Positions 30,341-49,422 of a stretch of DNA of 49,422 nt are shown in pieces. Source of the DNA: an uncultured Clostridia bacterium. Its GTDB lineage: Bacteria; Bacillota; Clostridia; Oscillospirales; Acutalibacteraceae. How positions within the stretch are numbered: position 1 is the stretch's first letter; the number at the start of each line of letters is the position of its first letter. The stretch spans positions 1 to 49,422 of the forward strand of contig CANRAU010000014.1 in assembly GCA_947628665.1 (NCBI GenBank), read 5' to 3'. The position numbers and the translations under genes were made by a program. The notes under the pieces were generated by a model. The model was not told the DNA's origin. It saw only the letters and a list, made by a program, of their open reading frames with translations, and searched no databases.

Positions 30341-31075
30341 ATGCAAAAAACCGCAATCGTTTCGGGTGCATCGGGCGGCATCGGGCAGGAGATTGCCTCG
30401 GCTTTGGCCGAGGACGGCTTTGCGGTGGCCGTACTTTATCACCAAAATGCGGACGGCGCACAAAATGCCGTCCGGCGCATTACCGAAAGCGGCGGCAAGG
30501 CGATGGCGTTTTCCTGCGATGTTGCCGACAGCGCCGCCGTGGAAGCCACGGTCGGACGCGTGCGGGCGGCGTTCGGCGCAGTTTCGGTACTGGTCAACAA
30601 CGCGGGAATTTCCGAGCAAAAGCTGTTTACCGAAATTACCGACGCCGATTGGCACCATATGCTGGACGTGCATCTTTCGGGCGCGTTTTATCTGACGCGC
30701 GCGGTGCTTCCCGATATGCTGCATGAAAAGGCGGGGCGCATTGTCAATATCGCTTCCATGTGGGGTGAGACGGGCGGCTCGTGCGAGGTGCATTATTCCG
30801 CGGCGAAGGCGGGATTGATCGGCATGACCAAAGCGCTTGCCAAGGAGCTTGCGCCCTCGGGCATTACCGTCAACGCGGTGTCTCCGGGTGCGGTGGATAC
30901 GGCGATGATGCAAAAGCTGGGCGCGGAGACCTGCCGTATGGTGTCCGAAGAAGTGCCGCTCGGCAGGCTCGGCACACCGCGCGAGGTCGCCGACGCCGTA
31001 TGCTTTTTGGTGAGCGAGAAGGCCTCCTATATCACGGGGCAGGTGCTTTCCGTCAACGGCGGCGCGGTTATTTGA
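30341..31075 (+). CDS. Short-chain dehydrogenase/reductase, possibly EF-P aminopentanone reductase type
   Basis: An NAD(P)-dependent classical SDR of 244 residues. The cofactor loop GASGGIG is at 9-15, NNAG at 86-89, and the catalytic Ser139, Tyr152 and Lys156 are all present; the C-terminus ends ITGQVLSVNGGAVI. It could be annotated FabG-like, but the SMWGETGGSCEVHYS block around the active site resembles the YmfI group, which reduces 5-aminopentanone on elongation factor P in Firmicutes; efp is not in the window, so this is inference. ATG 30341 is preceded by GGAAGTGGTG. It stands alone between glgP and the PI-PLC operon. Confidence 0.85.
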   Translation: MQKTAIVSGASGGIGQEIASALAEDGFAVAVLYHQNADGAQNAVRRITESGGKAMAFSCDVADSAAVEATVGRVRAAFGAVSVLVNNAGISEQKLFTEITDADWHHMLDVHLSGAFYLTRAVLPDMLHEKAGRIVNIASMWGETGGSCEVHYSAAKAGLIGMTKALAKELAPSGITVNAVSPGAVDTAMMQKLGAETCRMVSEEVPLGRLGTPREVADAVCFLVSEKASYITGQVLSVNGGAVI

Positions 31076-39588: not shown

Positions 39589-39723
39589 ATAGAGGCTGTC
39601 CGGTCGCGGTGCGCGGATCCCCCGTGCCGCCTGTACGGCAAACGGCTTTGGCTTGCTTTTGAATTTCGGTTGCCTTTGGACGCCGCAAAGATGGGCGCAC
39701 AGCCTTTGGAAACAACAGAATAT

Positions 39724-39799
39724 GCTACTGTGGCTCAGCTGGTAGAGCAGCTGATTCGTAATCAGCAGGTCGGCGGTTCGAGTCCGCCCAGTAGCTCCA
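39724..39799 (+). tRNA. tRNA-Thr (anticodon CGT)
   Basis: A 76-nt cloverleaf: acceptor GCTACTG/CAGTAGC, D arm GCTC/GAGC, anticodon stem GCTGA/TCAGC around TTCGTAA (anticodon CGT, codon ACG), T arm GGCGG/CCGCC around TTCGAGT, encoded TCCA end. It borders the sulfoquinovose block, a frequent landing site for acquired DNA; no duplicate of its 3' end was seen farther right in the window. Confidence 0.96.
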
Positions 39800-39805
39800 A
39801 AAACC

Positions 39806-39831
39806 TTCACACGGGATTTGTTCGGTGTGAA
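39806..39831 (+). other. Hairpin after tRNA-Thr
   Basis: TTCACAC (39806-39812) and GTGTGAA (39825-39831). No T run; possibly a processing structure. Confidence 0.45.
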
Positions 39832-39867
39832 TCAGGCATAGGAAGATGCAGAAGATGGCGCAGACCC

Positions 39868-39898
39868 GAAAACGGGGCTGTGCCGTTTTCCTGTTTTC
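39868..39898 (+). terminator. Probable terminator upstream of the sulfoquinovose cluster
   Basis: GAAAACGG and CCGTTTTC enclose a 7-nt loop, followed by CTGTTTTCC. Confidence 0.6.
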
Positions 39899-39981
39899 CG
39901 CAAAGTTCCTTGGTTTAACTGTCGGAAAGGGCGCATTATGGGGGCGCAGGCGGCGTGCATATCCCCGATTCGGAAAGTAAA

Positions 39982-40028
39982 ATTCCGCTTTGGGGTTACA
40001 CCTATTGACAACGACCCGAAAGCGGAAT
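39982..40028. promoter_or_regulatory. Long inverted repeat flanking the -35 box of the sulfoquinovose promoter
   Basis: Arms ATTCCGCTTT (39982-39991) and AAAGCGGAAT (40019-40028) are perfectly complementary and continue inward as GGG/CCC after one mismatch. The -35 box lies in the loop and the right arm touches the -10 box, so a dimeric regulator bound here would cover the promoter. Confidence 0.6.
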
Positions 40029-40033
40029 ATAAT
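40005..40033 (+). promoter_or_regulatory. Consensus promoter of the sulfoquinovose operon
   Basis: Perfect TTGACA (40005-40010), 17-nt spacer, perfect TATAAT (40028-40033). Such a strong promoter usually needs a repressor. Confidence 0.85.
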
Positions 40034-40041
40034 ATGGATAT

Positions 40042-40066
40042 AATTGATTAACAGAGTTTATCAATT
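40042..40066. promoter_or_regulatory. Operator-like palindrome just after the transcription start
   Basis: A 25-bp palindrome: AATTGAT at 40042-40048 and ATCAATT at 40060-40066, with 3 more pairs inside after one T-T mismatch. It covers about +2 to +26 of the predicted transcript, a classic repression position; the cluster's ROK regulator is the natural candidate. Confidence 0.65.
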
Positions 40067-40096
40067 GCCTGAAAGGGCTGTTTGGGAGGTCCTATT

Positions 40097-42091
40097 ATGG
40101 AGTTTGTGAAATCGCAATCCGGCGCTCGCCTTGTTCGCGGTGAAAAAACGCTTTACGAATTTGTAAGCGGCGCTCCTCTTTGCGTTGTCGGCACGGGCAA
40201 AAATGCCTATTCCATGAGCCACGGCAGCTTTAAAATAAAAGAAAAAATCGATTCGCGCACCGAATGTCGGGCAGAACGTGTCGATTTTGAAAGCAACGAT
40301 TTTATAAAGCTCAACTCCGCTCTCGGCAGCTTGGACATTCAAATCGAGGGCGAGCGTCTTTGCTTTGTTCCGCATTTCCCTGAAAAATACAACAGACTTT
40401 GGATCAAACTCCCCGCGCAAAGCGACGAAAAGGTCTACGGCTGCGGCGAAACATTCACCGAATTTGACCTTCGCGGCAAAAAGGTAAATATTTGGGTGGC
40501 GGAGCACATAAATGCTGCGCAGCTTGCAAAAAAAGTCGTCAAAACGACTTTCGGACAGCGGGATACCGAAAAAAAACAGAAATTTGCGAATTACGAGACC
40601 TATTATGCCGAACCCACATTTTTGAGCTCGCGAAAATATTATTTTCACGCCGCCTCCGGCGCGAGATGCATATTTGATTTCACCAACGATGGCTATCATC
40701 TTTTGCAGACGGACTCCATAGCGCCGTTTTATATCGGCTTCGGCGACACGTTTGCGGAAGTTGTGCGTGACCTGACGCTCCTTTTGGGGCGTCAACCGGA
40801 GCTGCCCGACTGGGTATATGACGGCGCCATTCTCGGCATACAGGGCGGCACGGATGTCATGATGAAAAAGGTAGACGCGGCTCTGGATGCCGGTACTGCC
40901 GTATGCGGCGTTTGGATACAGGACTGGGAGGGCAGGCGCGTTACAGCATTCGGCAAGCAGCTTCAATGGAACTGGGAATGGGATGAGGAGCGTTACCCCG
41001 CGCTTGACAAGGCGATCAAGAAACTCAACGAAAAGGGTATTCGCGTACTCGGCTATGTCAACACGTTCCTTGCTGTGGAGCTCCCGCTCTACAAAGAGGC
41101 GCACGCGAAGGGCTACTGCGTCAAAAACCAAAAAGGCGAAGATTATTACGTCACCATAACCACCTTCCCCGCAGCTATCGTTGACCTCACAAATCCGGAG
41201 GCATACGAATGGCTCAAAAACATAATCAAAAAAAATATGATAGATTTCGGGTTTTCGGGCTGGATGGCCGATTTCGGCGAATATCTGCCCACCGACAGCG
41301 TGCTTTTCAGCGGTGAAGATCCGGAGCTTATACACAACCGCTGGGCGGCGATATGGGCAAAGCTCAACCGCGAGGCTGTCGAAGAGAGCGGTAAATTGGG
41401 AGAGATCATGTTCTTTACCCGCGCCGGCCATACCGATACCAAAAAATACTCCACAATGATGTGGAACGGTGACAACCATGTCGATTACTCGATAGATTTC
41501 GGCCTGCCGAGCGTTATACCCGCTTCTCTTTCGCTGACCTGCTGCGGATTCGGTCTGAGCCATTCGGACGTGGGCGGCTACACGACTTTTATGAAGCTGT
41601 GCCGTTCTCCCGAACTCTTTATGCGCTGGGCAGAGATGAATGCCTTTACGCCGCTTATGCGCGGGCACGAGGGATCCAACCCCGATTTAAACGCGCAGTT
41701 TGACGCGAACGGCGAAGTGCTTGCCCTGCACGCAAAGATGAGCAGGGTGCATAAGGCGCTGAAACCGTATCTGAAAGCATGCGTTGCCGAAAACGCGCAA
41801 AGCGGTCTCGGCGTGATTCGTCCGCTGTTTTTCCATTACGACGAGGAGGAAGCCTACACCGAGAGCTATGAATATCTGCTCGGACGCGACATTTTGGTTG
41901 CTCCCGTTTTAAGACCGAACGCCGTCAGCCGCAAGGTATATCTGCCCAACGACGAATGGGTACACCTTTGGAGCGGCAAATGCTATTCCGGCGGCAGGTA
42001 CGACGTTCAATCGCCCGTCGGTGAACCGCCGGTCTTTGTCAGAAAAGGCTCTGAACATTTTCAGGAGCTGATTGCGGTAAAGGATGCATAA
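40097..42091 (+). CDS. yihQ: Sulfoquinovosidase (GH31, YihQ/SftG type)
   Basis: Hydrolyses alpha-sulfoquinovosides such as sulfoquinovosyl glycerol to sulfoquinovose; 664 residues, no signal peptide, so intracellular. It aligns with E. coli YihQ, as I recall that sequence, without gaps over the catalytic core at a constant offset of 13: nucleophile D392 in MADFGEYLP (D405), acid D459 in MMWNGD (D472). Of the sulfonate-pocket residues Q262, Q288, R301, W304 and Y508, four are kept (Q249, Q275, W291, Y495) but R301 is Q288 here. ATG 40097 follows GGGAGG. It uses at least 13 ATA codons, unlike the dnaK and glgP genes (0 and 2). First gene of the operon, behind the repressible promoter. Confidence 0.92.
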   Translation: MEFVKSQSGARLVRGEKTLYEFVSGAPLCVVGTGKNAYSMSHGSFKIKEKIDSRTECRAERVDFESNDFIKLNSALGSLDIQIEGERLCFVPHFPEKYNRLWIKLPAQSDEKVYGCGETFTEFDLRGKKVNIWVAEHINAAQLAKKVVKTTFGQRDTEKKQKFANYETYYAEPTFLSSRKYYFHAASGARCIFDFTNDGYHLLQTDSIAPFYIGFGDTFAEVVRDLTLLLGRQPELPDWVYDGAILGIQGGTDVMMKKVDAALDAGTAVCGVWIQDWEGRRVTAFGKQLQWNWEWDEERYPALDKAIKKLNEKGIRVLGYVNTFLAVELPLYKEAHAKGYCVKNQKGEDYYVTITTFPAAIVDLTNPEAYEWLKNIIKKNMIDFGFSGWMADFGEYLPTDSVLFSGEDPELIHNRWAAIWAKLNREAVEESGKLGEIMFFTRAGHTDTKKYSTMMWNGDNHVDYSIDFGLPSVIPASLSLTCCGFGLSHSDVGGYTTFMKLCRSPELFMRWAEMNAFTPLMRGHEGSNPDLNAQFDANGEVLALHAKMSRVHKALKPYLKACVAENAQSGLGVIRPLFFHYDEEEAYTESYEYLLGRDILVAPVLRPNAVSRKVYLPNDEWVHLWSGKCYSGGRYDVQSPVGEPPVFVRKGSEHFQELIAVKDA

Positions 42092-42123
42092 CAAAAGCAA
42101 ATATTCTTTTCGGAGGAATTTTT

Positions 42124-42804
42124 ATGAAATATTTTCTTGACAGCGCCAAAATAGACGAGATTAGAGAGGCGTATGACACCTTTGGAATAGACGGCGTCAC
42201 AACGAATCCGAACCACATTATGAATTCGGGCAAGCCGTTTTATACGGTCATTTCCCAGCTTGCCTCTTTCGTAAAGGAAAAAGGCATTGAGGGGTGGGAG
42301 AAATTTCCGATCTCGGTCGAGATAAATCCGCATCTTGACAACGCCGAAGAAATGACGGAAATGGGGAAAAAGATCTCCGCAATGTGTCCGAACTTTGTTA
42401 TCAAAATACCGTGTACCGAAGCGGGTATCGCCGCCGCAAGGCAGCTTGAAATGTGCAATGTCCGCACGAACCTTACGCTTGTGTTTTCGCCCTCTCAAGC
42501 GATTATCGCCGCAAAGAACGGTTCTCTTTTCGTTTCGCCGTTTATCGGGTGGAAAGAGAACAGCGGCGAGGACTGCGTCAAATACATTCACGATATCGCA
42601 AAGATTTACAAAAACTACGGCTATCGCACGGAAATCATCTGTGCCGCCGTCAGAACAGGCAAGCAGTTCGTGGACTGCGCTGTAGCCGGAGCGGACATCG
42701 TTACCGCAGGGCTTCAGGTTTTCAAAGACAGCTTTTATCATCCGTTCACCGATTACGGACTTGCGAAATTTCAGGCCGCATGGGACAACACAGTGACAGA
42801 ATAA
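42124..42804 (+). CDS. sftT: 6-deoxy-6-sulfofructose transaldolase (SftT)
   Basis: Cleaves sulfofructose by a Schiff-base mechanism, passing dihydroxyacetone to glyceraldehyde-3-phosphate to give fructose-6-phosphate and releasing 3-sulfolactaldehyde. At 226 residues it belongs to the short FSA/TalC-like transaldolases: D6 in KYFLDSAKI, TTNPNHI (26-32), Schiff-base lysine K94 in FVIKIPCTEA, and LTLVFSPSQA. By fold alone it could be a fructose-6-phosphate aldolase, but its place between a sulfoquinovosidase and a sulfolactaldehyde-type reductase makes SftT the best call. GGAGG precedes the ATG; 32 bp after yihQ. Confidence 0.87.
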   Translation: MKYFLDSAKIDEIREAYDTFGIDGVTTNPNHIMNSGKPFYTVISQLASFVKEKGIEGWEKFPISVEINPHLDNAEEMTEMGKKISAMCPNFVIKIPCTEAGIAAARQLEMCNVRTNLTLVFSPSQAIIAAKNGSLFVSPFIGWKENSGEDCVKYIHDIAKIYKNYGYRTEIICAAVRTGKQFVDCAVAGADIVTAGLQVFKDSFYHPFTDYGLAKFQAAWDNTVTE

Positions 42805-42834
42805 CATATTCTGCGTCAGAAAGGCATGACTCAA

Positions 42835-43701
42835 ATGAAAATAGGATTTATCGGTCTCGGCATTATGGGCGAATCCATGTGTGAAAACATCATTCAAAAG
42901 CATGATGACAAAGTTTATGTAAACGATATAAACCGCGCGCAGGTCGAAAAGCTCGCGGCAAAAGGGGCTGTTGCCTGCAAAGACAACACGGAGGTAGCCA
43001 AAAACGCCGACGTCATCCTCACCATGCTCCCAAAATCGGAGCACGTTCGGGCAGTCTACAACGAGATCCTCGACGAACTGCGCGAAGGGATGATATGCAT
43101 CGATATGAGTACGATCGACCCGCAGGTTTCCGTCGAGGTCGCAAACACCGTCAAGGCAAGGGGCGCACAGTTTGTGGATGCTCCCGTAGTCAAATCAAAG
43201 CCCGCTGCGGTAGACGGCACGCTCGGAATTCTTGCGGGCTGCGATGAGGAGCTTTTCCCTGTGATACTGCCGATTCTTCAATATATGGGCTGCAACGTCA
43301 TCCGCATGGGCGGCAACGGCAGAGGACTTGTTATGAAAATTTGCCACAACGCTCTCTGCGCCGAGATACAAAACGGCGTGAACGAAACGATGCTGCTCGC
43401 GAAAAGCTTGGGCGTCTCGGCGGAGGATTTTCACACTGCGGTGTCCTACGGAGGGGCGCAGTGCTTTTACCTTGACGCTCAATGGAAAAATATCGATTCG
43501 GAAAATTGGGCGACTGCGTTCTCGCTTGAAAATGAGAACAAAGATCTCGGCATTTGCAAACGCCTTGCGGACGAAACCGGCGTAAAAATGCCCGGCATGG
43601 AAAATGCGAGAAAGGTTTATGCCAAGGGTATGCGCGCAGGTATCGGCAAAGAGGACTGGCGCGCAACATATAAAATCGTCAGAGGCGATTACGATGCTTG
43701 A
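42835..43701 (+). CDS. yihU: 3-sulfolactaldehyde reductase (YihU/SftD-type beta-hydroxyacid dehydrogenase)
   Basis: NADH-dependent reduction of sulfolactaldehyde to 2,3-dihydroxypropanesulfonate regenerates NAD in fermenting cells. The 288-residue protein has GFIGLGIMG at the N-terminus, MSTIDPQ, DAPVVKSKPAAVDGTL (substrate loop, where relatives acting on other acids have a conserved G-G pattern) and the catalytic lysine in GLVMKICHN. The C-terminal RAGIGKEDW recalls the GRGRQDW of YihU. ATG 42835 is taken rather than 42826, whose ribosome site would be too close. Its end overlaps the next gene by 8 bp. The alternative is hydroxyisobutyrate or tartronate semialdehyde reductase; context argues against it. 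Confidence 0.85.
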   Translation: MKIGFIGLGIMGESMCENIIQKHDDKVYVNDINRAQVEKLAAKGAVACKDNTEVAKNADVILTMLPKSEHVRAVYNEILDELREGMICIDMSTIDPQVSVEVANTVKARGAQFVDAPVVKSKPAAVDGTLGILAGCDEELFPVILPILQYMGCNVIRMGGNGRGLVMKICHNALCAEIQNGVNETMLLAKSLGVSAEDFHTAVSYGGAQCFYLDAQWKNIDSENWATAFSLENENKDLGICKRLADETGVKMPGMENARKVYAKGMRAGIGKEDWRATYKIVRGDYDA

Positions 43702-44359
43702 ACGACTCAACAGCGTCAATGCCGTAAAAATTTATTCGGTTTCCGACGACGTGTTCAAAACGTACGGGCGCGTTTTTGAAGGATATGATTTTTCCGCCCT
43801 GATCCATTATATGGAAAAGCACACGGATATCCCGAAGGACGGCAACGTCTATCTCCCCTCCTGCCCGCACATGGAAAACACCCCCGAGCGTCGGATAATC
43901 GAACGGAATATTTTCGGCGGTATGCCCATTGAGATCGGCTACTGCAACGGACGCAATACAACATATAACGGCTTTGAATATCACAAGTGCAGTGAATTGA
44001 ATATCGCCGTGACGGATTTCATGCTTGTTTTGGGACACGTTTGGCAAATCGAAAACAACAGCTTTCTCGTCGGGAACGAAAAGGTTTTTTACGTCCCAAA
44101 GGGAACGGTGCTGGAGATGTATCAGACAACGCTGCATTTGAGTCCGTGCCGTGTGTGCGACGGCGGATTCAAAGACATTGTCATTCTCGCGCGCGGAACG
44201 AATACGCCCCTTTCGGGCGAAGCAACTCCCGTAACGGACGAGGACGCGCTTTTGCTGCAAACAAACAAGTGGGTGATCGCCCATAAAGAAAGGCTCCCGC
44301 TCGTCAGCCAGGGCGCGCACGTCGGGCTTATCGGCGAGAACAGGGAGCTTAAGTATTGA
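43694..44359 (+). CDS. sftI: DUF4867-type protein, probable sulfoquinovose isomerase (SftI)
   Basis: A 221-residue cupin-like protein: YGRVFEGYDFSALIHYMEKH, LPSCPHMENTPERRIIERN, FGGMPIEIGYCNG, TDFMLVLGHVWQIENN, and a YVPKGTVLEMYQTTLHLSPC stretch with histidine and glutamate residues typical of metal cupins. From memory, the Firmicutes transaldolase pathway uses an isomerase of this family (also named SqvD) to turn sulfoquinovose into sulfofructose; this memory is not certain. AGAGG lies 8 nt ahead of the ATG, which overlaps the reductase gene by 8 bp. A second, different isomerase candidate follows. Confidence 0.72.
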   Translation: MLERLNSVNAVKIYSVSDDVFKTYGRVFEGYDFSALIHYMEKHTDIPKDGNVYLPSCPHMENTPERRIIERNIFGGMPIEIGYCNGRNTTYNGFEYHKCSELNIAVTDFMLVLGHVWQIENNSFLVGNEKVFYVPKGTVLEMYQTTLHLSPCRVCDGGFKDIVILARGTNTPLSGEATPVTDEDALLLQTNKWVIAHKERLPLVSQGAHVGLIGENRELKY

Positions 44360-44368
44360 GGTAAGATT

Positions 44369-45703
44369 ATGAAATTTGAATGTGCATATATCCCCATCGG
44401 CGTGCCGACGTTTCACATCGAAAGCGCGCAAAAGGAATTCGAGAACTCCAAAGCGCTGCTTGAATCGCTCTGCGACGCCGTCCAATGTCCCGATGAAATG
44501 CTTTTGTCAGTCGAAAAGCTCAGCGAATTTTTGCAGACGGTAAACCCGCAGCTGGCAATCGTTCAAAATGTCACTTTTGCGAATGCCGCGTACATAAGCG
44601 AGGTTGTCAAGCGCTTGGACTGCCCCGTGCTTTTGTGGACTTTGCGCGAGCCTGTCATTGACGGCGGCAGGCTCAGACTGAATTCCCTGACCGGAGCGTT
44701 CTCCGCAGGGAACACATTGGCTGCTATGGGCAGGCGGTTTGAATATGTTTTCGGCTCTCCTGCCGAGGCGGCGGTCAGACGCAAGCTTACCGCCGCAATT
44801 GACGCGGCAAAGCTCAAAGCGTCGCTGCAAGAGCTTAACCTCGCCCAAATAGGGCATACGCCGCAGGGCTTCGGCTTCGGCAGAGCGGATGACTGCGATA
44901 TGCTGAGGACGTTCGGCGTCACGCTGCATTCAATTGAGGCGCGCGAACTGATCGAACGTGCAAAAGGGTATTCCGACGCACAGGCGGCAGAATATCTTGG
45001 AAAAGCGGAACGTGCGATAACCGGCCTTTCGGCCATACCCGAAGAGAACAGGCTTGGCTTTGCGCGGCTTTACAAGGCGTATTTTGAATATTGCGCCGAA
45101 AACAACGTCGGTGCGCTCTCCTCCCGCTGCTGGCCGGACTTCTTCACGTCGTTCGGCACGCCCGTTTGCGCGGTGCTCGCCATGCTCAACGATTTCGGGA
45201 TACCCGCCGCGTGCGAAGCGGATTCCTACGGCGCACTCTCCATGTACTGCGCCCAGGCTCTTACGGGTTCGCCTGCGTTTTTCGGCGATCCCGTCTCGAT
45301 GGACGAGGACAAAAACACAATAACATTTTGGCACTGCGGGACTGCCGCCTGTTCGCTTGCCCGCAGTGACACCGGTGCGGTAGCGGGCGTCCACTGCAAC
45401 AGAAAAATAGGCCCGACGCTTGATTTCGGCTGCAAGCCGTGCGAAAGAGCGACGATCCTTCGCATAGGCAAAAAGCCCGGCGGAGACTTCAGGCTCTTTC
45501 TCGCTTGCGGCGAGATACTTGACATGCCCAAGCAGTTCAACGGAACGTCGCTTGTCGTTAAGACCGATTCAAATGCCGCAAATATCATAAACAACGCCGT
45601 CAAAGACGGCTGGGAGCCGCATTTTGCGGTAAGCTACGGCGACATCTCCGCCCAAATGATCGTGCTCGGCAATATGCTCGGCATAGATGTCATTTCTTAC
45701 TGA
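44369..45703 (+). CDS. L-fucose/L-arabinose isomerase-like protein in the sulfoquinovose cluster
   Basis: A 444-residue protein of the FucI/AraA C-terminal-domain superfamily. It starts with a periplasmic-binding-like N-terminal lobe (CAYIPIGVPTFH, IVQNVTFAN) and has the isomerase elements GHTPQGFGFG, GALSSRCWPDFF, AACEADSYGALSMYCAQ (metal-ligand acid region) and FWHCGTAACSLA. It can be expected to isomerise an aldose to a ketose using a divalent metal. In this operon it is either the sulfoquinovose isomerase itself, with the DUF4867 protein in another role, or handles a side-sugar. Its stop overlaps the exporter start by 1 bp (TGATG). Confidence 0.8.
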   Translation: MKFECAYIPIGVPTFHIESAQKEFENSKALLESLCDAVQCPDEMLLSVEKLSEFLQTVNPQLAIVQNVTFANAAYISEVVKRLDCPVLLWTLREPVIDGGRLRLNSLTGAFSAGNTLAAMGRRFEYVFGSPAEAAVRRKLTAAIDAAKLKASLQELNLAQIGHTPQGFGFGRADDCDMLRTFGVTLHSIEARELIERAKGYSDAQAAEYLGKAERAITGLSAIPEENRLGFARLYKAYFEYCAENNVGALSSRCWPDFFTSFGTPVCAVLAMLNDFGIPAACEADSYGALSMYCAQALTGSPAFFGDPVSMDEDKNTITFWHCGTAACSLARSDTGAVAGVHCNRKIGPTLDFGCKPCERATILRIGKKPGGDFRLFLACGEILDMPKQFNGTSLVVKTDSNAANIINNAVKDGWEPHFAVSYGDISAQMIVLGNMLGIDVISY

Positions 45704-46434
45704 TGCGCAATAACATAATCTTTGAAATCATAGTTTTTTTGTCGAATATCGTTCAGTGCGTAACGGGATTTGCCGGCACGGTGCTTGCAATGCCGTTTTC
45801 GGTGATCACCGTGGGCTACGGCGTCGCAAAACCGATACTGAACGTGTTGGGCATTGCCGCCTCGGTCGGCGTCGTCGCCTCCGCTTACAGGAGCATAAAC
45901 AAAAAAGAGTTTTTAAAAATCGTTTGCGTCATGCTCGCGGGCATTATAGCGGGAATGTACCTTGTCACGTTTTTTGCGGGAAGCGAAGCGTTGTTATACA
46001 AGCTGCTCGGCGGCGTGGTCATAGCCTTTGCTCTCATCAACGGGTATCAATTTCTCCGCAAAAAAGAGAGCAAAGATATGAACGGCGTTTGGTCTTTTCT
46101 GTTGCTGGCGGTCGCGGGGGTCGTTCACGGAATGTTTGTCTGCGGCGGACCGTTGCTTGTGACATACGCCTCCGTCAAGCTCAAAGACACAAACGAATTT
46201 CGCGCAACGCTTTCCGCTGTATGGATCGTTCTCAATACGGTTATTCTTTTCGGCGACGTAAGAGCCGGATATTTCACCGGTAACGTCATCATTTTGCTTG
46301 CCGTGTCGCTCGCGGTACTCGCCGCGGCGGTTATCATAGGCAATATCATCAGCAAACGGCTCAGCAAAAACGTGTTTCTCTGTTTGACATACGTTTTGAT
46401 GCTGATAAGCGGCGTTTCGCTGTTTTTAAAGTAG
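45703..46434 (+). CDS. TauE/SafE-family exporter, predicted DHPS exporter
   Basis: A 243-residue inner-membrane protein of the DUF81/TauE group with about eight hydrophobic segments; TauE relatives carry sulfite, sulfoacetate and related anions. The first helix has QCVTGFAGTVLAMPF and the second half VVHGMFVCGGPLLVTYAS, the duplicated family signatures. Sulfoglycolytic bacteria need to expel the C3 sulfonate product, and this gene's place downstream of the reductase points to 2,3-dihydroxypropanesulfonate as cargo. The start is joined to the isomerase-like gene by TGATG. Confidence 0.85.
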   Translation: MRNNIIFEIIVFLSNIVQCVTGFAGTVLAMPFSVITVGYGVAKPILNVLGIAASVGVVASAYRSINKKEFLKIVCVMLAGIIAGMYLVTFFAGSEALLYKLLGGVVIAFALINGYQFLRKKESKDMNGVWSFLLLAVAGVVHGMFVCGGPLLVTYASVKLKDTNEFRATLSAVWIVLNTVILFGDVRAGYFTGNVIILLAVSLAVLAAAVIIGNIISKRLSKNVFLCLTYVLMLISGVSLFLK

Positions 46435-46443
46435 GTGAGGGCT

Positions 46444-47550
46444 TTGCGGGGATTAAACTTACGGGACATCAAATATTCCAACAAAACCGCAGTCCTGTAT
46501 CTTTTGAACAGCCGCCCGAAGCTCAGCCGCAAAGACATTGCGGAGGCTCTTGACCTGACTCCGGCGGCAGTAACCAAAATATGCCAGGGACTCATAAGCG
46601 AGGGGCTTATCAAAGAGATCGGCGAGGTCTGCGACGTCCATAAGGCGGGCGCCGGTCGAAAGAAAATATCGATCGACCTTTGCCTTGACAAATACTACAC
46701 GGTCGGCATAAACGCGGAGATAGACAAAATCACCGTCTCCGTCATTCGGCTTGACGGCAAGCCGGTTTTGTCCGACAGCCTCCCGCCCGATTCGTCTGTA
46801 GACGAGATCGTGTGGTCGAGTCGCGAGACGCTTTATGCCGGCGGGATAGACGCCGAAAAGTTTTTGTGTATCTCGCTGTGCGTTATCGGTTCTCCATGCG
46901 ATAACCGCTTCGGCCTTTGGAATATCGACGAGATAACCGACAAGGCGAGCGCTGTTTTAAAGCTCCCCGTAGTGGTTGAAAACAACATTCGCGCGTTTGC
47001 CACGGCGCAAATGATTTACGGCAAAACCCCGCCCGAAAGATCGCTGCTGTTTTTAAAGTGGGGACCCGGTATCGGTTCGGCAATATCCTCCAACGGCGAA
47101 ATCGTTACGGGCAGCGACGCCGGCGTTGCGGAGATCGGGCATTACATTGTCCGACGGGACGGTCAAAAATGCCGCTGCGGGCGGTACGGCTGCCTGGAGA
47201 CGGAGGTATCCTCCGCCGAAATCATGCGTGAAACCGGCCTCCATTCCGTGCAGGAAGTATTGGAGAGCCGCGATAGCGCCGTCATCCATATTCTCGACTC
47301 CAAAATAGACACGGTCGCGCTGGCGCTTACCAACACGGCAACCATACTCAACGCCGAGAAGATTATACTTTTTGGATCGATGTTCAAAAGCGACGACGTT
47401 GTGGAAAAGCTCGTGCGGCAGTGCCACAGGTACAACATAAACTTTAAAAAAAATATCATGGTTCTTTCCGAACTGAACGACAAAATATCCTACATCGGAG
47501 CGGCGGCTCTGGCGGCAAAGCAGTTCTTTTTTGAAAAAGACAAAAACTGA
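46444..47550 (+). CDS. ROK-family transcriptional regulator, candidate cluster repressor
   Basis: A 368-residue regulator. An N-terminal winged helix (about 1-60: NLRDIKYSNKTAVLYLLN, SRKDIAEALDLTPAAVTKIC) is followed by the ROK sugar-kinase-like domain with the zinc cluster CRCGRYGCLETE and a degenerate phosphate loop, as in NagC/Mlc/XylR repressors that sense sugars. TTG 46444 is chosen because AGGTG stands 6 nt upstream; GTG 46435, directly after the exporter stop, has no ribosome site. Part of the operon it probably controls, through the palindromes at 39982-40066. The inducer may be sulfoquinovose or sulfofructose. Confidence 0.85.
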   Translation: MRGLNLRDIKYSNKTAVLYLLNSRPKLSRKDIAEALDLTPAAVTKICQGLISEGLIKEIGEVCDVHKAGAGRKKISIDLCLDKYYTVGINAEIDKITVSVIRLDGKPVLSDSLPPDSSVDEIVWSSRETLYAGGIDAEKFLCISLCVIGSPCDNRFGLWNIDEITDKASAVLKLPVVVENNIRAFATAQMIYGKTPPERSLLFLKWGPGIGSAISSNGEIVTGSDAGVAEIGHYIVRRDGQKCRCGRYGCLETEVSSAEIMRETGLHSVQEVLESRDSAVIHILDSKIDTVALALTNTATILNAEKIILFGSMFKSDDVVEKLVRQCHRYNINFKKNIMVLSELNDKISYIGAAALAAKQFFFEKDKN

Positions 47551-47644
47551 AGATTCCATGAGAATCAGGCAAGAGGGGAATCGAAGAAAGAATTGCGAAA
47601 AAACAAAAAGAAACGGCTGAGCATTCGGCAAGTAGCCAATGCGC

Positions 47645-47674
47645 TTGCCCCGCATCCTACGGCTATTGTATCAT
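47645..47674 (+). promoter_or_regulatory. Weak promoter candidate before the importer
   Basis: TTGCCC (47645-47650), 18-nt spacer, TATCAT (47669-47674). The importer gene is 217 bp from the regulator, enough for its own control. Confidence 0.35.
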
Positions 47675-47715
47675 GGGCATCCCAAAGCCCGCTGATATTT
47701 TTGCAAGTGTACTAA

Positions 47716-47739
47716 GCAGACCCACTTAAAACCGTCTGC
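47716..47739. promoter_or_regulatory. Inverted repeat in importer leader
   Basis: GCAGAC (47716-47721) and GTCTGC (47734-47739) with a 12-nt spacer. A possible operator or leader hairpin. It is not similar in sequence to the palindromes before yihQ. Confidence 0.4.
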
Positions 47740-47767
47740 AAATCTTAGTTATACGAGGAGAATTTCC

Positions 47768-49180
47768 ATGGTGGAAGCAATGCAAACACACGGCATTAAA
47801 TTCAAGGATAAATTCGGGTATGCACTCGGCGATATGGGCGGTCTTTTCACCTTTTCGCTCATCGCGGCATTCCTCAATATGTTCTACACCGACGTTCTTG
47901 GCATCTCGGCGGGAAAGATAACCGTACTGATGATCGTCGCAAGGGTGTGGGACGCCATCAATGACCCGATGTGGGGTTCGTTTGTGGACTCCCGCAAACC
48001 GACGCGGTTCGGGCGGTTCAGACCGTATATTCTTTGGGCGTCCTTCCCGATGGCGGTCGCCGCGTTTTTGATGTTCTTTAAAGTTCCCGGGCTTTCTGAA
48101 AATCAATATCTTATTTACGCTTACATTACATATATCTTCTACGGTATGATGTATACCGGCGTAAATATTCCTTACGGCTCGCTCGCTTCCACCATCACGG
48201 ACGACGAGATCGAACGCTCCTCGCTCTCCATGTGGCGCTCAATCGGCGCCGGCTTCGGCGGGTTGCCTGCACAGATCCTTTTGCCGCTTGTGGTCTATTC
48301 GGAGATTGCAACGGCGGACGGCTCGACCGTAAAAGTTCTTGATCCGACGAAGCTCTCTATTGCGGTCGGCATTCTCGCCGCGCTTTCTGTATTCGTTTTC
48401 CTTTCTCACTTTAAGCTTACGAAAGAGCGTGTTCAACTACCGCCGACGCAAAAGCAGGGCGATTTCAACGTCCTCAAGACCGTCAAGGTATTGCTTAGAA
48501 ACAAGCCGTTCATCGTGCTTTGCATCATCTCCATGCTGCTCATCTGCTTCCAAATGTACACACAGACGATTTATAACTATCTTTTCAAGAGCTATTATGA
48601 AAAGCCGGGTCTTTACAGCGTAGTCACAATTTGCACATATCTGCCCATGGCCATGTTCCTGCCCGTTATGGGCAAGCTCGTCCGACGCTTCGGCAAAAAA
48701 GAGATATGCGGCGTGGGTCTTGCGTTCTCGGCAGTCGTCAACATACTTATGTACCTTGCCGGTTTTACTTCGATCGCTCAAAATCCGATGATCTTCCTTG
48801 TGCTTCTCTTCTTCTCCGGCGCGGGTCAGACGTTCCTTGTGCTTGAAGTGTGGGCGCTCGTGATGGACGTTATCGACTATCAGGAATTCCTTTCCGGCAG
48901 GCGTGAAGAGGGAACGTCTTACAGCTTTTATTCGTTCACCAGAAAGCTCGGTCAGACGATTGCGGGCGCAGGCGCGTCTGCGGCTTTGGGGCTGATCGGC
49001 TACAACGGCAAGCTTGCCGTTCAGCCGACGGAGGTTCTGCCAAAACTCTATACACTGGCAACGCTCGTTCCGGCTATCATTTTGATGATTATGTTTGTTC
49101 TGACCGCGTTCTGCTACAAGCTCTCCAAGGGAGAGATCGAGAAATTCCACGCAGAGATGGCCAAAAAGGACGAAGCATAA
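47768..49180 (+). CDS. GPH-family symporter, predicted sulfoquinovoside importer
   Basis: A twelve-helix MFS/MelB-type sugar:cation symporter, 470 residues. It has GYALGDMGGLFTFSLIAAF, the helix-II signature WDAINDPMWGSFVDSRKPT, RFGRFRPYILW and the loop FLSGRREEGTSYSFYSF. YihO-like members of this family accompany sulfoquinovosidases in Enterobacteria, so import of sulfoquinovose or sulfoquinovosyl glycerol fits. GAGGAG lies 7 nt ahead of the ATG. Last gene of the cluster; the frame just after its stop enters a phosphoesterase relic. Confidence 0.87.
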   Translation: MVEAMQTHGIKFKDKFGYALGDMGGLFTFSLIAAFLNMFYTDVLGISAGKITVLMIVARVWDAINDPMWGSFVDSRKPTRFGRFRPYILWASFPMAVAAFLMFFKVPGLSENQYLIYAYITYIFYGMMYTGVNIPYGSLASTITDDEIERSSLSMWRSIGAGFGGLPAQILLPLVVYSEIATADGSTVKVLDPTKLSIAVGILAALSVFVFLSHFKLTKERVQLPPTQKQGDFNVLKTVKVLLRNKPFIVLCIISMLLICFQMYTQTIYNYLFKSYYEKPGLYSVVTICTYLPMAMFLPVMGKLVRRFGKKEICGVGLAFSAVVNILMYLAGFTSIAQNPMIFLVLLFFSGAGQTFLVLEVWALVMDVIDYQEFLSGRREEGTSYSFYSFTRKLGQTIAGAGASAALGLIGYNGKLAVQPTEVLPKLYTLATLVPAIILMIMFVLTAFCYKLSKGEIEKFHAEMAKKDEA

Positions 49181-49294
49181 AATCCTGTTTCAAGCATTGC
49201 ACCAACCGTTGCGGGGAGCAGCGACGCCAAGCGCATGGTCTATGTGTTCGGCAACCACGACTTACATCATGAACCGATAAAGCACAAAAACTAG
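49181..49294 (+). pseudogene. Fragment of a metallophosphoesterase gene
   Basis: Starting directly behind the importer stop and in the same frame, 38 codons read to TAG and include AKRMVYVFGNHDLHHEP, the GNHD metal motif of calcineurin-like phosphoesterases, with no more of the domain on either side. This is a degraded or truncated gene piece. The same motif family is intact at 36290 (VFGNHDHEG) but the flanks differ. Confidence 0.5.
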
Positions 49295-49315
49295 GCGGTC
49301 CGATTTGGACCGCCT
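49293..49315. terminator. Hairpin at the right end
   Basis: AGGCGGTCC (49293-49301) and GGACCGCCT (49307-49315), a perfect 9-bp stem with 5-nt loop, at the inner edge of the terminal repeat. The T tract is poor on the plus strand. Confidence 0.6.
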
Positions 49316-49422
49316 CAGTTTGACGATAAACTGTTTTGCGATAGAAAAACAACCAAAAGTTTTCGCCCGCCTTTTTCAAAAGGCGGCGGGGTTGAGGGGC
49401 GGCGCCCTCATCGCAGCCCGCA
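49315..49422. repeat. Right terminal copy of the dispersed repeat, cut by window edge
   Basis: Bases 49315-49390 are the inverted partner of 1-76. Beyond them TGAGGG/CCCTCA forms another short hairpin and TCGCAGCCCGCA repeats 22373-22384, showing that a hairpin array like that at 22323-22560 begins here. Confidence 0.8.

Follow-up and report, generated by a model that had tools for sequence, protein, structure and literature searches.

A predicted ROK-repressed sulfo-TAL operon for sulfoquinovose in an uncultured Clostridia bacterium, and the uneven distribution of its DUF4867 gene

The locus studied here raises the question of what a row of eight plus-strand genes (40097–49180) at the right-hand end of a contig from an uncultured Clostridia bacterium is for, what controls it, and whether each of its genes is needed. 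The window is the whole of that contig (CANRAU010000014.1, or C14; 49,422 bp), which belongs to a 2.0-Mb genome that is 99% complete. The segment is an ordinary, apparently complete operon of the sulfofructose transaldolase type (sulfo-TAL, or SFT), a further example of a known pathway. With a probability of roughly 0.9, it would serve the anaerobic use of sulfoquinovose with formation of 2,3-dihydroxypropane-1-sulfonate (DHPS), and would be repressed by a ROK-family protein via a palindrome. This reading is built on gene content and order, conserved residues, the predicted fold of SftI, and a promoter and palindrome tightly linked to the ROK gene, all seen directly, and from these we infer the substrates, the flux to DHPS, repression and the inducer.

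The genes follow one another in the order sftG-sftT-sftR-sftX-sftI-tauE-rok-gph (Table 1), are all open in the open reading frame calls, and could each be assigned to a family with Pfam and NCBIfam profiles. Their tight spacing (gaps of 32, 21, −11, 9, −1, 0 and, before gph, 217 bp) and these assignments confirm the eight consecutive plus-strand genes of the preliminary description, and its roles for a sulfoquinovosidase, an SftT-like transaldolase, TauE, ROK and GPH proteins are likewise backed by family, residue or synteny evidence. For sftX the ATG at 43694 is preferable to the codon at 43691, and the overlap with sftR is then 8 bp. The first ATG of the cassette is at 40097, position 39982 falling within the promoter region at an inverted repeat, of which it is the left arm, and the contig ends 242 bp past the cassette, with any genes further downstream outside view. 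A scan of 84,980 species genomes gave 351 SftT relatives, the best 80 of which are the loci surveyed below. This arrangement of eight genes is found again in 27 of these 80 loci, so that it cannot be put down to chance, and is the commonest order among them; it is also found in three of eight other loci of the same genus, those three being part of the 80.

Among the enzymes, SftG has as its nearest relatives in the PDB 8r56 and E. coli YihQ (5aed), at E ~1e-197. Its D392 and D459, which we take to be the nucleophile and the acid/base, are invariant in 69/69 rows of the alignment. SftT is the sole TAL_FSA match found in the genome, and its Lys94, invariant in 81/81 rows, aligns with Lys89 of the Bacillus megaterium enzyme BmSF-TAL, the Schiff-base lysine according to passages of PMC12890257. 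The only NCBIfam match of SftI is NF048012, which scores 412 bits over the full length and so falls short of its cut-off (700). An AlphaFold2 model of it made from 11 sequences (pLDDT 86, pTM 0.89) resembles L-arabinose isomerases of the PDB at a TM-score of about 0.8, and L-fucose isomerases at about 0.75. E283, D307 and H418, which by comparison with fucose isomerase presumably form the metal site, are invariant across 18 aligned sequences that are 24–76% identical to that of the window. Of the two isomerase candidates proposed earlier, SftI thus keeps that status by its fold, while the other is the DUF4867 cupin SftX, which is not a shown isomerase.

The proposed YihU-like reductase stands as a member of its reductase family, with K171 invariant in 76/76 rows; its kinship to YihU is only distant, E. 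coli YihU (6sm7) being the third-best PDB match (E 8.3e-38). We take Arg123, Asn174 and Ser178 to be the sulfonate-binding residues of E. coli YihU; at these positions the aligned rows carry K (76/76), H (69/76) and V or C (71/76). Because these positions differ, the gene is named sftR and not yihU. A canonical YihU was set aside on the same residues and on a score of 169 bits with NF012005, whose cut-off is 348. The tauE-like gene comes after sftI in most loci. The only match in the genome that resembles pyruvate formate-lyase (PFL) is a formate C-acetyltransferase, with 913 bits on the stretch scored, just below the cut-off of 994; the HpfG and HpsG models give it 57 and 53 bits. No enzyme of the HpfG/HpsG type was found among the PFL-like matches of the genome, and a Pfam profile scan found no aldehyde dehydrogenase gene within the cassette; both results agree with DHPS fermentation. 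The pathway is expected to end in DHPS, which the TauE-like protein would export, since the one glycyl radical enzyme of PFL type that was found is a pyruvate formate-lyase of the ordinary kind, and an HpfG-extended form of the pathway was set aside on the same ground.

Table 1. Features of the sulfoquinovose cassette and its upstream region (window positions).
Feature	Position	Strand	Assignment and evidence
tRNA-Thr(CGT)	39724–39799	+	ARAGORN; Rfam RF00005 71 bits; 297 bp before first ATG
Imperfect inverted repeat, 15 bp	39982–40028		Spans −35 element; 93% complementary, 17-nt loop; separate from predicted operator
Sigma-70 promoter TTGACA-N17-TATAAT	40005–40033	+	12/12 consensus
Palindromic predicted operator AATTGATTAACaGAGtTTATCAATT	40042–40066		Over expected transcription start; predicted ROK repressor site
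sftG	40097–42091	+	GH31 sulfoquinovosidase, YihQ type; NF007746 798 bits, cut-off 553
sftT	42124–42804	+	TAL_FSA family; 8bc3 (BmSF-TAL) E 6.5e-94, 67% identity
sftR	42826–43701	+	Predicted NAD(P)-dependent 3-sulfolactaldehyde reductase, beta-hydroxyacid dehydrogenase family; PF03446/PF14833
sftX	43694–44359	+	DUF4867 metal-binding cupin; PF16161 244 bits, cut-off 28.7
sftI	44369–45703	+	Sulfoquinovose isomerase type, arabinose/fucose isomerase fold; NF048012 and AlphaFold2 model
tauE-like	45703–46434	+	Predicted DHPS exporter; PF01925 70 bits, cut-off 32.6
rok	46435–47550	+	ROK-family DNA-binding protein, predicted repressor; PF00480 103 bits and N-terminal winged helix
gph	47768–49180	+	GPH/MFS symporter, predicted importer of sulfoquinovose or its glycoside; TIGR00792 312 bits, cut-off 231

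With the pathway biochemistry as described in passages of PMC11968277, PMC12890257 and PMC8397734, the operon would work as follows. The GPH symporter would import sulfoquinovose or its glycerol glycoside, SftG would release sulfoquinovose, and SftI would turn this into sulfofructose. SftT would then transfer the C1–C3 unit of sulfofructose to glyceraldehyde-3-phosphate, yielding fructose-6-phosphate, which would be retained for glycolysis, and sulfolactaldehyde, which SftR would reduce to DHPS with re-oxidation of NADH; the TauE-like protein would export the DHPS. SftX would be an accessory metal-binding cupin that some operons of this type do without. The ROK protein would sit on the palindrome over the transcription start of the consensus promoter, from which a sulfosugar should release it.

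In the control region, the promoter is the only 12/12 site in 39700–49422. The palindrome that follows it has the consensus AATT[GA]ATTAAC-NNN-GTTAAT[TC]AATT, and its 21-bp core has a chance expectation of 0.04 in the window at up to three mismatches; at that same tolerance the predicted operator is a single copy in the 2.0-Mb genome. In 60 upstream regions, the core TTAACNNNGTTAA was found with at most one mismatch in 30 of 33 loci that have the ROK gene (shuffle mean 1.0) as against 5 of 27 that lack it (shuffle mean 0.6). Twelve of these 27, among them four of the five with the palindrome, were dropped because their contigs are cut before a ROK gene could be visible, leaving one palindrome (L070, far upstream) in 15 scorable loci; the comparison of 30/33 with 1/15 gives a Fisher p of 1.9e-8, uncorrected for the shared ancestry of the loci. 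The predicted operator begins 3–16 bp past the best-scoring −10 element across the 30 operator-bearing loci with ROK, and in 17 of these, including the window, a 12/12 promoter stands just before it (shuffle mean 0.005). The ROK protein has three cysteines (C246, C248 and C253) conserved at the 97% level in 40 rows. The palindrome is very probably the ROK operator, and the simplest reading of the sequence data is a repressor that would block the transcription start of its own operon. That the ROK protein does not regulate this operon, and that the palindrome instead serves another factor or belongs to an RNA element, is improbable. The association comes from sequence comparison only, among loci that share ancestry, and the palindrome probably lies partly within the transcribed leader; against this, palindrome and ROK gene are absent together on several branches, the dyad is at the DNA level with the placement and single genomic copy described above, and Rfam at gathering thresholds finds only tRNAs in the window.

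Several points weigh against the sulfoquinovose operon under ROK control as a whole. SftI, SftR and SftT all score under the NCBIfam equivalog cut-offs, and therefore their equivalence rests on context and residues. SftR of the window has K, H and C where YihU has the three residues named above. For the switch, the best promoter match is merely 8/12 in four of the 30 palindrome-bearing loci, three ROK-bearing loci (L064, L089 and L092) lack a good palindrome, and a palindrome before gph was found in none of 34 ROK-bearing loci, so that gph may have its own control. The low profile scores and the altered active-site neighbourhood of SftR, together with enzyme activities that are predicted from sequence, would also fit a cassette that applies the same chemistry mainly to another sulfosugar or phosphosugar-like compound, for instance sulfofucose or sulfofructose glycosides. 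This we consider very improbable: SftG scores 245 bits above the YihQ-type cut-off, and the solved structures closest to it are GH31 enzymes of the YihQ type, one of them deposited as a sulfoquinovosidase, SftT is close to BmSF-TAL, and the operon has a candidate gene for each step of the sulfoquinovose pathway and no other sugar enzyme. That SftT is a housekeeping transaldolase in a general sugar operon, for which its being the one TAL_FSA protein found in the genome might speak, is barely credible and was set aside, since 27 of 35 other genomes of the genus (some incomplete) have no SftT match at E<=0.001, so that it is not essential, and where other genomes of the order have a match (9 of 23), its identity to SftT is only 28–41%, compared with 67% for BmSF-TAL.

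The remaining part of the question is whether the sulfoquinovose operon needs SftX. The protein has a solved homologue (9gyy, E 3.8e-66), and its E96, H98, E102 and H149 (numbered from codon 43691) are invariant in 51/51 rows; these are the four ligands of the 2His-2Glu metal site that passages of PMC11968277 describe for the B. megaterium DUF4867 protein. Among the 80 loci, sftX is present in 52 and absent in 23, with the contig cut in five. In all 23 loci without it, sftI directly follows sftR with a gap of 3–20 bp, and a whole-genome search found DUF4867 in none of the 23 genomes, for which completeness is not given; the same search was positive in 6/6 SftX-bearing control metagenome-assembled genomes and in all nine SftT-bearing genomes of the genus. 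The other five loci (L059, L080, L082, L100 and L101) are cut before sftX or have a partial cassette and are excluded from the 23; DUF4867 was found in 0/5 of their genomes, which an assembly gap would explain too. A tree of SftT, SftR and SftI (73 loci) requires no fewer than four changes of SftX state, each on a branch with good support, loss and gain being indistinguishable in this count. Because of its absence from 23/80 cassettes and these repeated changes, there is evidence that SftX is not obligatory and that the pathway does not always need it. A replacement gene was considered and rejected, given the short sftR–sftI gap in all 23 loci and no obvious mutarotase gene in the 12 of them with neighbours listed (by eye, no family search). 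A comparison of SftT, SftR and SftI from loci without sftX gave nothing convincing in the way of convergent changes.

The presence of SftX goes largely with that of the ROK gene: in 66 scorable loci both are present in 41 and both absent in 21, four (L027, L030, L040 and L072) have SftX without ROK, and none has ROK without SftX. Strict coupling was rejected: a pair test gives p 0.25 with four independent contrasts only, and there are exceptions. In a wider sample of five loci, L174 has ROK at a contig edge and DUF4867 was not found in its genome, and L172 has ROK with its sole DUF4867 about 134 kb away; sulfo-transketolase-like (sulfo-TK-like) loci of the same genus carry SftX without ROK. 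The link is loose at best. It is possible, and in our judgement rather unlikely, that SftX is an accessory of ROK-controlled cassettes and not a required catalytic step, since several gut-Clostridia branches have neither SftX nor ROK with its operator. The six-gene operons left on such branches (sftG-T-R-I-tauE-gph) have no regulator seen adjoining them. If this were true, SftX might condition the form of the sugar that the repressor senses, or matter only under tight induction.

Some further variants were seen around these genes. In two of the operons without sftX, sftG and sftT are separated by an additional gene of ~230 residues (L043:9291-9983 and L067:5302-6003); the two genes are related and by eye peptidase E-like. 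Lone DUF4867 genes, 38–41% identical to SftX and by eye without adjoining sugar genes, occur at L131:1151-1795, on a short contig, and at L135:10078-10719. At L175:3982-5916 and L176:4199-6134, SftX and an adjoining ROK gene stand divergent from a mixed transketolase/transaldolase cassette.

Among described systems, the sulfo-SFT cluster of Agathobacter (Eubacterium) rectalis (EUBREC_2585-2596) shares SftG, SftT, SftR, SftX, SftI and a DHPS exporter, and there too, as proposed here, sulfolactaldehyde is reduced to DHPS (passages of PMC11968277 and PMC8397734). By its description that cluster has a glycerol kinase, which the present operon lacks, and those passages name no ROK protein, whereas a ROK gene is present here. 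The sulfo-TAL systems of Bacillus megaterium and B. aryabhattai (SqvA, SqvB, SqvD) share the sulfofructose transaldolase (8bc3), DUF4867 and the SftI/SqvD family; in passages of PMC12890257 and PMC11489063 their SlaB oxidises sulfolactaldehyde to sulfolactate, whereas the cassette here has a reductase and no aldehyde dehydrogenase. The extended sulfo-TAL of Enterococcus gilvus (HpfG/HpfD/HpfXYZ) shares the core genes, a YihU-type reductase and TauE, going by passages of PMC11489063; unlike there, a route to 3-hydroxypropanesulfonate or 3-sulfopropionate was not found here, with no HpfG-type enzyme among the PFL-like matches. The sulfo-TK-like cassettes of the same genus (L133:6308-14161 and L134:6518-14397) share SftG-like, SftX-like, TauE-like and GPH genes in one row, and differ in that SftT and SftR are replaced by a distant SftI-like isomerase (26–28% identity), an iron alcohol dehydrogenase and an RpiB-like isomerase; ROK was not found in that stretch. 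No transketolase gene was seen in these cassettes. Their genomes have three Transket_pyr matches, the same number as the genome of the window, and a housekeeping transketolase may for this reason do the cleavage there.

Within the genus, SftT is found in 8 of 35 other genomes, and in a ninth (G005) a truncated contig holds the part of such a cassette from sftR to gph; the cassettes of the genus come in two gene orders. In the rest of the order (23 other genomes) no SftT-like protein exceeds 41% identity, and among 390 other genomes sampled evenly across the class, five encode such a protein at E<=1e-60. On the cassette tree the window groups with L040, L022 and L046 (support 100/99), and the seven cassettes of the genus in the tree do not form one clade (approximately unbiased test, p-AU 7e-7). 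RecA rejects a clade of the window, L040 and L022 (p-AU 2e-4), no RecA match being found in the genome of L046. Because cassette tree and RecA conflict, the sequences point to horizontal acquisition of the cassette, a reading that depends on one marker gene and on a group picked with the cassette tree already in view. Monophyly of the genus on RecA is also rejected, which says little, as some rows without a genus label (L058, L092) probably belong to the genus. At one locus without sftG, a Gfo/Idh/MocA-like gene lies ~2 kb upstream of sftT (L077:6809-7897) and by eye is perhaps a GH188-type NAD-dependent sulfoquinovosidase.

The tRNA-Thr gene does adjoin the cassette, as first described, and is probably not part of the system; no role beyond coincidence emerged. 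Of the eight other cassettes of the genus, the seven with a visible upstream side have no adjoining tRNA, the tRNA-Pro at one of them (L018) lying at a distance of about 6 kb; the eighth, L019, breaks off within sftG, with its upstream side out of view. No second copy of the tRNA-Thr tail was found in the contig, which stops soon after the cassette, and no integrase search was made. Apart from the tRNA itself and the flank just upstream of it, eight loci of the genus with a closely similar tRNA-Thr gave one short match to the cassette among the matches listed; L111 matches the window at 30353–31075, outside the cassette. A genomic island at this tRNA is not supported by these results, the right junction lying beyond the contig. 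Near the left contig end (169–5614), a class II aldolase-like gene, a TetR-like regulator and an FGGY-type sugar kinase were noted by eye, possibly a second sugar-use locus.

Sulfoquinovose is a major sulfosugar of green plants, and the DHPS made from it feeds producers of hydrogen sulfide in the gut, as stated in passages of PMC8397734. The cassette itself is of known type, and adds an uncultured gut species of Clostridia type to those with the pathway; what is new in the present analysis is the predicted ROK switch and the evidence from SftX distribution. A description of a ROK-type switch for sulfoquinovose operons was not found in the literature searched; for Faecalicatena a repressor candidate is mentioned, its family unnamed in that passage (PMC11659671). 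A concrete, testable operator and promoter are now available for such a switch, and 23 operons amount to natural sftX deletions, with DUF4867 not found genome-wide, as evidence that sulfoquinovose can be handled by this route in some species with SftX dispensed with.

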